64,000 bases of DNA from Gemmatimonadota bacterium (lineage in GTDB: Bacteria > Gemmatimonadota > Gemmatimonadetes > Longimicrobiales > Gaopeijiaceae). Every line of letters starts with the position of its first letter. Position 1 is the first letter of the stretch. The notes under the pieces were generated by a model. It did no database searches, was not told the origin of the DNA, and was given only the letters and a program-made list of their open reading frames with translations. The stretch spans positions 1-64,000 of the forward strand of contig JAUIEJ010000004.1 of assembly GCA_030428885.1 (NCBI GenBank), given 5' to 3'. The translations under genes and the position numbers were made by a program. Of the stretch, positions 4,497 to 11,742 are shown one piece after another.

Positions 4497-5678
4497 TCAA
4501 GAGGAATAGTACGCCGCGTTCTCGTCGACGTAGCCCCTGGAGAGGTCGCACCCCCAGGCCCGGGCGCGCCCCGACCCCAACCCCAGATCCACCGTGAGGT
4601 CCACGGTGTCGCCGGTGAGGAGCGTGCGGACGTCGGCGTCGTCGAAGGTGGCCCGTCGCCCTCCCTCCACCACCGCCATGTTCCCGATTCGGGCCGAAAC
4701 CTCCCGGGGATCGACCTCCACGGCCACGCACTTGCCCACGGCCATGAGAATCCGGCCCACGTTGGGGTCCCCTCCGTGCACCATGGTCTTCACCAGGGGG
4801 GACTCCACCAGGGAGCGAGCCACGGTGCGGGCGTCGCCGGGAGTGAGGGCCCCGGTCACCGTGACCCGGAGCAGGCGGGTGGCCCCCTCCCCGTCCCGGG
4901 CCAGCATCTCGGTCATGCGGGTGCAGAGATCCAGGAGGGCTTCCTCGAACAGGCCCCCGTCCACCGGCCCCCCGTGGCCGTTGGCCAGGATCGCACAGGT
5001 GTCGGAGGTGCTGGTGTCGGTGTCCACCGACAGCATGTTGAAGGTGCGGTCCACCACCCGCCGAAGGATGGCGTCCAGGGGCCGGGCCTCCACCTCGGCG
5101 TCGGTGAAGACGTAGGCCAGCATGGTGGCCATGTTGGGCGCGATCATCCCCGATCCCTTGGCCACCACCGTGATGGTCACGGGCTCGTCGTCCAGATCCC
5201 GGACTTCACACGAGAGGGCCTTGGGGTGGGTGTCGGTGGTCATCATGCCCCGGGCGCCCACCAGAGGGTCGTCCTGGAGGCGCTCGGCCACCCCCACCAG
5301 GCCCGCCTCGATCTTGTCCACCGGGAGGGGAACGCCGATGACGCCGGTGGAACTCATGAGGACCGAGGACTCGTCCAGGGCGAGTTCCCGCGCCGCCGCC
5401 CGACCCATGGCCCGGGCCGCCTGCACCCCGGCCTCTCCCGTGCCCACGTTGCTGACCTTGGAGTTCACCACCACCGCCTGGAGCCGCCCGGACCGGAGCA
5501 GTTCCCGGCCCACGAGGATGGGGGCCCCCGGAAAGTGGTTGCGGGTGAACACGGCCGCGGCGGCGCAGGGCACATCGGAGACGAAGACGGCCAGATCTTC
5601 GCCCTGGCGCTTGAGGCCGCAGTGCAGTGCGGCGCAGCGGAAGCCCCGGGGAAACCGGGGCGTGTCGTGGATCTTCAT
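4497..5678 (-). CDS. argJ: Bifunctional glutamate N-acetyltransferase / amino-acid acetyltransferase ArgJ
   Basis: This 393-residue protein is a full-length ArgJ. It holds the autocleavage region KGSGMIAPNMATMLAYVFTD, in which the Thr of ATML becomes the N-terminal nucleophile of the beta chain, and the C-terminal phrase DLSRGYVDENAAYYSS shared by the family. ArgJ transfers acetyl from N-acetylornithine to glutamate and so recycles the acetyl group in arginine synthesis. No other arginine gene is in the window. Its ATG overlaps the stop of the upstream MarR-type gene (ATGA), so the two are probably co-transcribed. Confidence 0.95.
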   Translation of the reverse strand: MKIHDTPRFPRGFRCAALHCGLKRQGEDLAVFVSDVPCAAAAVFTRNHFPGAPILVGRELLRSGRLQAVVVNSKVSNVGTGEAGVQAARAMGRAAARELALDESSVLMSSTGVIGVPLPVDKIEAGLVGVAERLQDDPLVGARGMMTTDTHPKALSCEVRDLDDEPVTITVVAKGSGMIAPNMATMLAYVFTDAEVEARPLDAILRRVVDRTFNMLSVDTDTSTSDTCAILANGHGGPVDGGLFEEALLDLCTRMTEMLARDGEGATRLLRVTVTGALTPGDARTVARSLVESPLVKTMVHGGDPNVGRILMAVGKCVAVEVDPREVSARIGNMAVVEGGRRATFDDADVRTLLTGDTVDLTVDLGLGSGRARAWGCDLSRGYVDENAAYYSS

Positions 5679-6968: not shown

Positions 6969-7415
6969 GTGTACACATCGTTTCGGAAGCTCTGGCTCAC
7001 CGTCGCCGCCGGTGCCGTCTGCGTCGCCTGCGCCGGTGAGGTGCCGGCCCGGGCGCCCTCAACGCCCGAACCGGCCCGGCCCCAGCCCGGGCGGCTCGTG
7101 ACGGCCGACCGCATCGCCGCCTCCGGGGCCCGCACCGCCTGGGAGGCGCTGCGGCTCCTGGGCAACGTGCGGCTGGACATGGACAACCAGGGCGAGCCCA
7201 CCCGGATCGCCGCCCGAGGCCGCTCCTCCGTCATGGTGGAGGCGCCCCCCAAGATCGTGCTCAACGGGGTGGAGACCGAATCGTTGTTCGTCCTGCAGCA
7301 GATTCCCGCCGACCAGGTGGTGGAGATCCGCTTCCTGTCCGGACCCGACGCCACCACCTACTACGGCACGAACTCGGGCCACGGCGTCGTGGTGATCACC
7401 ACGAAGGGCCGCTGA
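6969..7415 (+). CDS. Small lipoprotein with isolated TonB-receptor plug domain
   Basis: The 148-residue protein begins with a GTG preceded by GGGAGG six bases upstream. It has a lipoprotein-like leader (LTVAAGAVCVAC) and then a domain that reads like a TonB-dependent receptor plug: LVTADRIAASGARTAWEAL, VLNGVETESLFVLQQIPADQVVEIRFLSGPDATTYYGTNS and the closing GVVVITTKGR. No beta-barrel follows. Similar stand-alone plug proteins are common in Gemmatimonadota-like genomes, but I know of no established role. Its 3' end overlaps the 3' end of the convergent receptor gene by 20 bases. Confidence 0.8.
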   Translation: MYTSFRKLWLTVAAGAVCVACAGEVPARAPSTPEPARPQPGRLVTADRIAASGARTAWEALRLLGNVRLDMDNQGEPTRIAARGRSSVMVEAPPKIVLNGVETESLFVLQQIPADQVVEIRFLSGPDATTYYGTNSGHGVVVITTKGR

Positions 7416-10400
7416 CGTCCAGACGGACGGTCCACCGCCGCACCGGCGGTTGGGTCATGAAGTCCCGGGTCAACACGTCGGCCGCCCCGAACTGGTTCAC
7501 CTCCGGGTCCATGCCCGAGTAGTCGGTGAACAGGGCGAGGTTGGTGCCCGACACCGAGAGGCGAGGCGTCCCGGGCCACGCCGCCGGCAGCGCCCACTTC
7601 ACCCCCGCTTCGGAGAGGCGCCAGAAGGAGGCGTCTTCCACGAACCCCGCCTCGGTGACGAAGTCCGGGGGGAAGATGGCCGGGGGCAGGGCCCGGGCCT
7701 GATCGCCGAGGGGGGCCGTGGGATCGTTGAATCCCCGGCACAGGGTGACCTGGCACCGATACCCCTCGGTGAGGTTGCGCACCCGATGGCCGCCCCGGTG
7801 GAGGAGGCGGGCGAAGGCGGTCACCGATCCCATGCGCAGATGGGTCCCCACGCCCACTTCCCGACGGGGATGGGGGCTGCCCAGGTAATGGGCCTCGGTG
7901 TCCACCGAAACCTCCGACGGCACGATCACCCCGTCGCCGTTGCGATCGTCGAAGGCCAGGGGGCGGTCCCAGTATCCGCCCAGGGGGTAGCCGGGCACGG
8001 TGCGCTGAAGCCCCTGGCGGATGTCGGCGTCGGCATCGAGGCGGGTGACCTCGTTGTGCATGAGGGCCGCCACGGCGTGGGCCGTCCAACGCACGGGCCC
8101 CTCGTCCAGGAGCACCGCCGTGGCGGCCAGTTCCAACCCCCGGTTCGCCACCGCCCCCACGGTGGCGTACGCGGCCCCTTCGGCGGCCTGGGCGAACAGG
8201 AGCGGCGTGCGGAGCAGGAGGTCGTCGGTGGTGCGGCGGTAGGCCACGACGTCCAGGGTGAGGTCGCCCTCGGCCGTGGCCCAGGCCGCCCCCACCTCCA
8301 CCTGGGTGGAGCGTTCCAGAGGGGGAACTCCGGCGTCGGGGGCCAGGACGACCCGGTCCAGGTCCCGCCCGTCGGTGTCGGGCACCGCCACGCCCCGTCC
8401 CCACCCGCCCCGGAGGGTCAGACGGGCGGGCCACCACCCGGACACGGGCCCCCACCGCACCGGCGCCACGGCGAGGGACACGTAGGGAAGGACGGCCCGC
8501 TCGAGGGTGCGCCCCAGGGCTCGGTTGTCTTCCACCCGCACGCCGCCCCGAATCTGTAGGCCCCGCCCCAGCGCCAGCTCCTGGTCCACCGCCCCGCCGG
8601 CGATGCGGCGGGTTTCCTCGAATTGGAGTCGCCGGGTGTCGGCGGCCTCGCTCGGGGTGGACGCCCCGGGAGGCAGCCCCTCGCCGTGGAGATCCTCCCG
8701 CTGAAACGACGACGAAGAGGCGTCGGCGGCGACGGTGGTCCGCGCCCGGATCCGGCCGCGCCCCCAATCCACGGCCACGGCCAGCCGCCCGGAGCGCCCG
8801 TCCACGGTGGTCCGGTTCCGGTCGGCCACCCCCCGGGGCAGACTCGACCCCAGAGCCACCACGCCCGGGGGAACGAACTGGGTGTCGAGGCGGTCCACGG
8901 CGTCGAGCCCCAGGTCCAGGACCACGTCCAGGGGCCCCACCCGGCCCGCCGCCTGGGCCGTGACGATGGCCCGGTCGGTCTCCTGGTCGATGCGCCGCGC
9001 GTAGACCTGGCTGGGCCGGAACAGCCGGTAGCCGTAGTCCACGTCGGCCCCGCCCTCGGCGTAGCCCAGCAACCCGGTGGCGTGGAGGCCGGCGAAGTCG
9101 TTGCCGTCCACCAGCCGTTCCAGCACCCGCCGCACCACGTGCCCCTCGAGGTGGAGCCGGCCGTCGTCTCCCAGGGGGAGGGCGACTCCCAGATCGGCCC
9201 CGAGCCGCTCCCGCCCCCGGGGCGGCGTGTAGGGCGAATCGGCCTCGAATTCGGGGAGGGCCGTCACCCCGTCGTCGCGCTGCCAGGAGCCCCCGACCTC
9301 CAGAGCGCTCCTCCCCACCCGGGTTCGAGCCACGGCGCCCGCCGCCGCCACGAGCCGGGAGGTGAAGGGCCGGGACACGGCCGCGCCGAAGGGGGCGAAG
9401 CGCTGGAGTTCGGTCTGGGTGCACCGCCCGTCGGCCACCTCCCACGCGAAGCAGGCGCCGGTCCCGTCCCGCCCGAACCAGTTGGCGGGCCTCGAGGCCA
9501 CGTCCCGCACCTGTCCCACCGACACCCAGCTCCGGAGTCCCTCCTTCCCGCCCCCGGCCCGGGCCCGGGAGGTCAGGACCACCACGCCCGCGGCGGCCCC
9601 GGCCCCCCACCGAGCCCCGGCTTCGGGACCCCGGAGCACCTCCACCCGGGCCAGGGACTCCACGGCGATGTCGTCGAGGCGGGAGGGCGCCTGGCCGCCC
9701 ACCTCCAGCGTGGTGGAGCGGGCGCCCGATTCGACCCGCATCCCGTCCAGCAGCACCACCGGTTCGTTGGAGAGAGCGAGGGATCCCACCCCCCGCACCC
9801 GGAGCCGGGGTGCGGCGCCGGGTGAGCCCGAGGAGGCCAGAACCTGGAGGCCCGGAAAGCGCCCGGCGAGCCAGGACGACAGGGGGACGCCCGCGCCCTC
9901 TCCCGGCTCCAGTTCCACCACCTGCGCGGCCAGGGGCCGCGCGCCGCCCCCGGCAGCGAAGGCCAGCAGGAGCAGCGCCGCCCCGGCGGCGGCCCGGCGC
10001 GCATTGGCCCATCGGAGCACCCCCACGCCCACGAGGAGGGCGGCCAGCGACGCCGCCGCCGTCCCGGGCCGGAGGAGCACGGCGCCGCCCACGGCGAACA
10101 TGGCCCCGAACAGGATCAGCAGTCCCGCTCCCACCCGGGTGAGGTCGGCCCCGAGGGAGCCGTCGGGCTGCACGCCGGTGCGGGCCCGCTGCACCGCCCA
10201 GCCCGGCCCACCGGGCCGCACCCGGCGGTAGAACTCGTCGAGGCGCTCGTCGCTTTCGGGGCGGGTGAGCCACATGACCGGCAGCCACACGGCGGTGGTG
10301 ATGCCTGCGGTGACCAGGAGGCGCAACCCGAAATCGGAGATGGTGAGGACCGGCACCACCGAGGTGCCGAGCCCCACCAGGAATCCCGCTACCATGGCGG

Positions 10401-11742
10401 CCAGTTCGGCGGGGGCATTCACCCGCCACCAGAACCACCGCAGGATCAGCACGAGTCCCGGCCCCGTGCCCACGGCGATGATGAGACGGAAGAGGGTGGT
10501 GACGTTTTCGCTGTAGAAGGCCGCCGCGGCTCCCAGCGCCGTGACCACCACCGACGCCACCCGGGCCGCCACCACCCGCTCCCGGGTCGACGCCCGGGGC
10601 CGGGCGAAGCGCACGTACAGGTCGTGGGTCAGGTACGACGCCGACCAGTTGATGGTGGTGGACACGGTGCTCATGAAGGCCGCCACCAGCGACGCCACCA
10701 CCAGCCCCAGGATCCCGGCGGGGAGGAAGTCCAGCATGAGCCGCGGGTATCCGAGCTCGGGATCGGCCAGATCCGGGTAGAGCACCACGGCGGCCAGGGC
10801 CACCACGATCCACGGCCAGGTCCGGATCACGTAGTGGAGGAGGTTGAAGAGCCACGCCGCCTTCTGGGCGTCGGCCTCGGTCCGGGCCGCCGCGAGGCGT
10901 TGAACGAACTCGCCGCCCCCGTCGGAACGCCGGAAGGCCCACCACTGGAGTCCCACGTACGCCAGGAAGGTGGACGCACTGATGCCCGCGGCCGTGGACC
11001 AGACGATCCTCCCCCCGTCGCCCCACGTCAGGGGCGTGAAGGCCAGGAGATCCACCCGCTCCACCTCACCGGCCGCCTCCACCAGCGCCCCGAGCCCGCC
11101 CAGGTGGGACACGGCCGACCACGCCACCACCAGGGCACCCAGGAGTCCCAGGACGAACTGGACGAAGTCGGTGACCACCACGCCCCACAACCCCGACAAT
11201 CCGGCGTAGACCAGGACCAGCGCCGACACGCCCACCACCGCCCAGAGGCGGTCCTGGGCACCGGTGAACCCCAGGGCCGGAAGCACCTCCAGGGCGTCCA
11301 CCACCTTGACCATGGCCAGCATGGACAACCCCAGGGAGATGGGCCCCAGGATCCCTGCGAAGAGAAAACCCTTCACCCCCCGGAGCACCGCAGCGGAACG
11401 GCCTCCGTACCGCAGTTCGCTGAGCTCGTTGTCCGTCACCACCTCGGCCCGGCGCCACAGCCGCGCGAAGACGTACAACAGCACCACGTGGGCCACTCCG
11501 AAGCTCCACCACTCCCAGTTGCCGGCGATGCCCCGGGTGCCCACCACCCCGGCCACGTACAGGGGGGTGTCGATGCTGAAGGTGGTGGCGGCCATGGAGG
11601 TGCCGGCGAGCCACCACGGCAGGGCGCGGCCGCCCACGAAGAAGTCCTCCAGGCTGCCCGACGCCCGACGGGCCAGGGCCATGCCCACCAGGAGGCTCGC
11701 CGCCAGGTATCCGGCGACGATCCAGAGGTCGAGGGCGGTCAC
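7396..11742 (-). CDS. Sodium:solute symporter fused in frame to a TonB-dependent receptor
   Basis: One uninterrupted frame of 1448 codons encodes two unlike membrane proteins. Residues 1-574 form an SSS-family symporter (opening LDLWIVAGYLAASLLVGMAL, then the SSS phrase FFVGGRALPWWLAGTSMAATTF, about 13-15 helices). From about 575 comes a typical outer-membrane leader (ARRAAAGAALLLLAFAAGGG, ending ARPLAAQ), a plug domain (LRVRGVGSLALSNEPVVLLDGMRVE, VEVLRGPEAGARWGAGAAAGVVVL) and a beta-barrel ending ...RRWTVRLDVSGPSW. The symporter belongs in the inner membrane and the receptor in the outer membrane. The GTG at 11742 overlaps the esterase stop by four bases. An internal GTG at 10020 would start a normal 874-residue receptor, so two products from one frame are plausible; stop loss or a sequencing error is also possible. 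Confidence 0.85.
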   Translation of the reverse strand: MTALDLWIVAGYLAASLLVGMALARRASGSLEDFFVGGRALPWWLAGTSMAATTFSIDTPLYVAGVVGTRGIAGNWEWWSFGVAHVVLLYVFARLWRRAEVVTDNELSELRYGGRSAAVLRGVKGFLFAGILGPISLGLSMLAMVKVVDALEVLPALGFTGAQDRLWAVVGVSALVLVYAGLSGLWGVVVTDFVQFVLGLLGALVVAWSAVSHLGGLGALVEAAGEVERVDLLAFTPLTWGDGGRIVWSTAAGISASTFLAYVGLQWWAFRRSDGGGEFVQRLAAARTEADAQKAAWLFNLLHYVIRTWPWIVVALAAVVLYPDLADPELGYPRLMLDFLPAGILGLVVASLVAAFMSTVSTTINWSASYLTHDLYVRFARPRASTRERVVAARVASVVVTALGAAAAFYSENVTTLFRLIIAVGTGPGLVLILRWFWWRVNAPAELAAMVAGFLVGLGTSVVPVLTISDFGLRLLVTAGITTAVWLPVMWLTRPESDERLDEFYRRVRPGGPGWAVQRARTGVQPDGSLGADLTRVGAGLLILFGAMFAVGGAVLLRPGTAAASLAALLVGVGVLRWANARRAAAGAALLLLAFAAGGGARPLAAQVVELEPGEGAGVPLSSWLAGRFPGLQVLASSGSPGAAPRLRVRGVGSLALSNEPVVLLDGMRVESGARSTTLEVGGQAPSRLDDIAVESLARVEVLRGPEAGARWGAGAAAGVVVLTSRARAGGGKEGLRSWVSVGQVRDVASRPANWFGRDGTGACFAWEVADGRCTQTELQRFAPFGAAVSRPFTSRLVAAAGAVARTRVGRSALEVGGSWQRDDGVTALPEFEADSPYTPPRGRERLGADLGVALPLGDDGRLHLEGHVVRRVLERLVDGNDFAGLHATGLLGYAEGGADVDYGYRLFRPSQVYARRIDQETDRAIVTAQAAGRVGPLDVVLDLGLDAVDRLDTQFVPPGVVALGSSLPRGVADRNRTTVDGRSGRLAVAVDWGRGRIRARTTVAADASSSSFQREDLHGEGLPPGASTPSEAADTRRLQFEETRRIAGGAVDQELALGRGLQIRGGVRVEDNRALGRTLERAVLPYVSLAVAPVRWGPVSGWWPARLTLRGGWGRGVAVPDTDGRDLDRVVLAPDAGVPPLERSTQVEVGAAWATAEGDLTLDVVAYRRTTDDLLLRTPLLFAQAAEGAAYATVGAVANRGLELAATAVLLDEGPVRWTAHAVAALMHNEVTRLDADADIRQGLQRTVPGYPLGGYWDRPLAFDDRNGDGVIVPSEVSVDTEAHYLGSPHPRREVGVGTHLRMGSVTAFARLLHRGGHRVRNLTEGYRCQVTLCRGFNDPTAPLGDQARALPPAIFPPDFVTEAGFVEDASFWRLSEAGVKWALPAAWPGTPRLSVSGTNLALFTDYSGMDPEVNQFGAADVLTRDFMTQPPVRRWTVRLDVSGPSW
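9900..10080 (-). other. Symporter/receptor junction with internal GTG start and signal peptide
   Basis: Three in-frame GTG codons (encoding VGVGV) occur just before the basic, then hydrophobic leader of the receptor. The last, at 10018-10020, would give MLRWANARR followed by a hydrophobic core and the cleavage region ARPLAAQ. The same stretch is the last helix of the symporter (LAALLVGVGVLRWANARR). There is no stop codon between the two domains. Confidence 0.6.

Follow-up and report, generated by a model that had tools for sequence, protein, structure and literature searches.

A single open reading frame of 1448 residues, on the minus strand of the 64,000-nucleotide stretch of Gemmatimonadota DNA analysed here (the window), joins an inner-membrane symporter of the SSS family to an outer-membrane TonB-dependent receptor, and is best read, with a probability of about three in four, as a natural two-membrane polyprotein that signal peptidase I would cut into symporter and receptor. 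As envisaged, the ribosome would make the symporter, the last helix of which would emerge on the cytosolic side at an arginine-rich stretch; the hydrophobic segment that follows would serve as an internal Sec signal sequence, threading the receptor into the periplasm, and signal peptidase I would then cut between A606 and Q607. After the cut, the inner membrane would keep the symporter, now tailed by the signal segment, and BAM would deliver the receptor to the outer membrane. We further lean, with rather less assurance, towards the view that one translation event delivers, through this internal signal, matched inner- and outer-membrane transporters in fixed stoichiometry. The topology, the cleavage, the final location of each half and the sharing of one nutrient by two proteins synthesised 1:1 are predictions drawn from the sequence. 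The features concerned are the following, with coordinates in the window.

7396..11742, minus strand: whole fused open reading frame, 1448 codons plus TGA, kept at full length in three other species (G001, G003 and G004)
11739..11742, minus strand: GTGA overlap between the stop of the esterase gene and the start of the symporter, the start GTG being at 11742
10006..11742, minus strand: SSS-family sodium/solute symporter, residues 1-579 (PF00474, AF2 model), with 13 core helices and two C-terminal ones
10072..10128, minus strand: penultimate symporter helix, residues 539-557 (hydropathy; AF2 helix 530-555)
10018..10020, minus strand: in-frame GTG, the internal start suggested in a preliminary description of this DNA, judged not needed and not conserved
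10006..10062, minus strand: last symporter helix, residues 561-579 (hydropathy)
9994..10014, minus strand: arginine-rich stretch R577-R583 (RWANARR), predicted to be cytosolic and to form the n-region of the predicted internal signal sequence
9925..9981, minus strand: hydrophobic segment, residues A588-A606, predicted to act as the internal Sec signal sequence (junction alignment, hydropathy)
9922..9927, minus strand: predicted signal peptidase I site between A606 and Q607, both invariant in 4/4 species
7399..9924, minus strand: predicted mature TonB-dependent receptor, 842 residues (PF07715 and PF00593), the plug of which matches SusC-like PDB chains
9583..9870, minus strand: plug domain (PF07715)

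From the GTG at 11742 to the TGA at 7396, the frame contains no internal stop and holds two separate protein families in one conserved frame. The preliminary description had reported a complete SSS symporter running stop-free into a TonB-dependent receptor, and this is borne out by three Pfam domains above their cut-offs, namely (i) SSF (PF00474; residues 34-453, profile positions 1-406 of 406, 110.1 bits against 22.8), (ii) Plug (PF07715; residues 625-720, 52 bits against 23.9), and (iii) TonB_dep_Rec_b-barrel (PF00593; residues 906-1226, 52 bits against 27). Across the four fused proteins, PF00474 and the plug are matched in all four and the barrel model in three. The AF2 model of residues 1-640 (mean pLDDT 87.1, low confidence beyond residue 597) exhibits the SSS/LeuT-like fold, for which Foldseek returned SGLT1/2 and SiaT as the nearest solved structures (SGLT1 7wmv, E 1.4e-16; SiaT 5nva, TMt 0.78). 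As such, the fused protein shares both PF00474 and fold with SSS symporters (PutP, SiaT, SGLT), but differs from them in having two helices beyond the 13-helix core, followed by the fused export signal and the receptor. With plug and beta-barrel both above cut-off, the second half is a TonB-dependent receptor. It is built of plug and barrel like the SusC/RagA TonB-linked outer-membrane proteins, chains of which match its plug, but unlike them it scores below both NCBIfam cut-offs for that subfamily (TIGR04056, 126.1 against 368.25 bits; TIGR04057, 16.3 against 46.2) and has neither a start codon of its own nor a separate gene. An AF2 model of this half, made from only two sequences, had a mean pLDDT of 40.5 and was set aside.

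The alignment of the four species displays one order at the junction, namely the last symporter helix, residues rich in R/K, a hydrophobic segment and an A-Q pair, where A606 and Q607 are fixed and their neighbours variable. With its arginine-rich stretch, hydrophobic segment and invariant pair, the junction looks like a Sec signal sequence. The cleavage site was read by eye, here as in the receptor signal peptides; in the source genome (G000), the residue at -3 of the predicted site is L, which is less usual there than A or V. Among the other receptors of the source genome, Q directly follows A, G or S in 22/22 readable non-lipoprotein signal peptides. This count covers 30 of the 37 plug-bearing places (L156-L185), i.e., the 22 readable ones, the fused frame, three that are lipoprotein-like and four without a signal peptide by the script rule, the tail of one of which (L157) nonetheless shows AAAQ; for the fused frame the script chose the wrong upstream segment, and it stands outside the 22. 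Having Q as the first residue beyond the signal peptidase I cut constitutes the Q-rule, presented as Bacteroidetes-specific in the available text of the paper describing it, which does not name Gemmatimonadetes (PMC5837995). The receptors of the source genome share this residue with those of Bacteroidetes, but the genome belongs to the Gemmatimonadota and the site in the fused frame is an internal one. When the two alternative frames of these G+C-rich sequences are scanned in windows of 37 codons, 3111 of 4496 (69%) are free of stops; since comparable stop-free stretches are common, the case rests on the conservation of the junction and not on its openness.

As regards topology, SiaT and PutP have 13 helices and a cytosolic C-terminus. 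SiaT (5nv9) aligns to residues 8-495 of the fused protein, after which come a 45-residue loop with 8 K/R, helices 539-557 and 561-579, RWANARR and the signal segment. Stand-alone orthologues end shortly after the same last helix and their tails are net positive in 37 of the 43 counted (the count excludes L076 as well as loci whose frames were truncated or scored low). Taken together, helix parity and the positive-inside rule would put the A606/Q607 site on the periplasmic side, a placement by parity and charge only.

A search of 58 relatives recovered the full-length, stop-free fusion in G001 (71% identity), G004 (69%) and G003 (68%), and thus in four of the six genomes of the genus, source genome included; G002 has the symporter alone, terminated by TAG, and nothing close was matched in G005 at the chosen cut-off. 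At higher ranks, the full-length fusion was found in 4/121 genomes of the family, 4/154 of the order and 2/298 in a phylum-wide sample (G000 and G001, with G003 and G004 absent from the list of matching genomes of that sample), these searches taking the best few candidates per genome at strict cut-offs, so that fusions on other symporters would escape. In the phylum sample, 42 genomes gave a match at E 1e-140, and in 40 of them only the symporter part is present. A scan of a collection of named genomes, in which the 80 best of the more than 569 candidates were kept, yielded 79 loci, i.e., one fused and 78 symporter-only, many of the latter cyanobacterial. The fused locus, JANQNV010000017.1 from a Longimicrobiales MAG, is evidently that of G003. 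Among these 79 loci, receptor and symporter are joined only in L076, weak receptor matches lie elsewhere in the locus in L138 and L149, and no symporter-receptor operon of the kind that could have preceded the fusion was found. Long open frames in L066, L067, L068, L071 and L072 had been flagged as other candidate fusions (L069, L070 and L073 were left out of the inspection), but proved to be ordinary separate genes, the frames of which run on by chance in the G+C-rich DNA. Cyanobacterial symporters of the same subfamily (L078-L098 and others) are close to the Gemmatimonadota ones, with 54-70% identity, and an old gene transfer is possible.

In a FastTree phylogeny of 59 sequences, the four fused symporters fall into a single clade (support 1.0), to which the stand-alone G002 copy (L077) is sister (0.995). 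Such a single clade is most simply read as one fusion event within the genus, the fusion having been kept thereafter. Length changes at the junction are in multiples of three only, and the same in-frame join in four species, with changes of this type only, is beyond chance. From the four fused sequences, pN/pS (NG86, uncorrected and crude at this divergence) is below 1 in all seven stretches, namely 0.18 in the symporter core, 0.39 in the C-terminal loop, 0.48 in the last two helices, 0.63 at the junction, 0.44 after the site, 0.38 in the plug and 0.71 at the start of the barrel. Save for the barrel, the junction is the least constrained part, as expected of a signal sequence.

These data bear on how the frame is to be understood. 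The odd architecture is all that speaks for a mistake in assembly or sequencing or for gene decay, a reading hardly credible when that architecture is repeated in four genomes, one of them a public record (JANQNV010000017.1), and pN/pS stays below 1 in all seven stretches. The preliminary description had named a sequencing error at the junction as the finding that would undo it and had called for relatives to be checked for a stop there; no stop occurs at that place in G001, G003 or G004, and since these three other species carry the same open junction, a sequencing error is excluded. The loss of a natural stop, which it had also raised, can be upheld only for the distant past, as the event that once gave rise to the fusion, consistent with the single clade. 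A programmed frameshift, or some other device by which part of the translation events would end with the symporter, would find an argument in G001, where a +1-frame stop falls within the last symporter helix, right at the point from which codons were counted. Given that in the other three species an out-of-frame stop is first met 46 to 258 codons further on, or is not reached, and that no conserved signal was seen, we consider such a device a very slight prospect.

More weight, though still that of an unlikely explanation, attaches to an internal start at GTG 10020, 10026 or 10032, by which the receptor would be made with its own signal peptide and the read-through product would be a by-product or degraded. 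The restart at GTG 10020 proposed earlier relies on a codon that is real, in frame and possible in G000, where GTGs stand 36, 34 and 32 codons before Q607 (10020 being the third), and comparable GTGs in G001 and G004 bring suitably placed ones to three of four species. Nevertheless, the start is not conserved, because in G003 the stretch from 16 to 49 codons ahead of Q contains no ATG, GTG or TTG; the symporter would still be left without a stop; and no purine-rich Shine-Dalgarno stretch precedes the three GTGs, although this last point counts little because none precedes GTG 11742 either. That the fusion is never cut, and is either tethered across the envelope or held with both halves in one membrane, would fit the conserved frame and the AF2 model, in which the last helix and the next hydrophobic segment form a single continuous helix (559-596), a modelled continuity that neither supports nor excludes cleavage. 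We rate it as improbable, less so than a frameshift but more than an internal start: the invariant A-Q pair speaks against it, and the spacer from the segment to the plug counts only about 25 residues, i.e., about 9 nm if fully extended, and the usual periplasm is wider than that. With a spacer so short, and a receptor barrel that belongs in the outer membrane, cleavage is likely; the retention in four species of both the join and a segment resembling an export signal makes one long protein, subsequently cut, the most likely course. Splitting of a polyprotein by signal peptidase, one of the options listed in the preliminary description, is therefore the best supported of them by virtue of the invariant A-Q pair, the [A/G/S]-Q rule and the topology, the cut itself being predicted.

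The nearest precedent is the cytochrome b/c1 precursor of Bradyrhizobium (fbcH), in which an inner-membrane protein and an exported protein are reportedly fused and an internal signal is cut after insertion. The present frame likewise joins a polytopic inner-membrane protein to an exported protein through a (predicted) internal signal. The two systems differ in that both fbcH products sit in one inner-membrane complex, whereas here the second product would be an outer-membrane barrel, the halves are transporters and the cleavage is a predicted one. No SSS symporter-receptor fusion was found in the literature searched, which also did not return the cytochrome b/c1 precursor; the search on SusC was blunt, 'susc' also matching words such as 'susceptible'. 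A processed polyprotein would be of a rare but known kind, and the combination of inner-membrane symporter with outer-membrane receptor appears, from the literature searched, to be new. Outer-membrane barrels are assumed to be independent products, each beginning with an N-terminal signal peptide of its own. If the polyprotein reading is true, the machinery of SecYEG, signal peptidase I and BAM is able to handle a barrel that trails a membrane protein of 15 helices, and an outer-membrane importer is tied to its inner-membrane partner, a pairing for which operon structure is usually the sole clue. Faced with such a gene, gene callers and localisation predictors would report either an error or a single protein of impossible design.

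The gene neighbourhood gives some indication of the substrate. Upstream lies an esterase gene (PF00756), the stop of which overlaps the start GTG; it is not beside the fusion in G001, G003 or G004. An argJ-like gene (4497-5678, minus strand) comes after the fused gene and occupies the same place in these three species. A GH3 (NagZ-like) gene is found on the same strand, directly before or near the symporter, in ten stand-alone Gemmatimonadota-type orthologues (L062, L106-L110, L112, L113, L117 and L133), and a GH3 gene adjoins the stand-alone symporter of G002. Paralogous symporters adjoin genes that look NagZ-like and NagB-like by sequence. The searched stretches of the three other fused loci, where argJ follows the fusion, gave no GH3 match. 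The GH3, NagZ-like and NagB-like neighbours suggest an amino-sugar or muropeptide-type substrate for the symporter, and the receptor half would carry the same one. At its 3' end, the fused frame is overlapped by 20 bases by a convergent open reading frame (6969-7415, plus strand), which encodes a lipoprotein-like protein of 148 residues with no barrel and a TonB plug (PF07715, 37 bits) as its sole domain.
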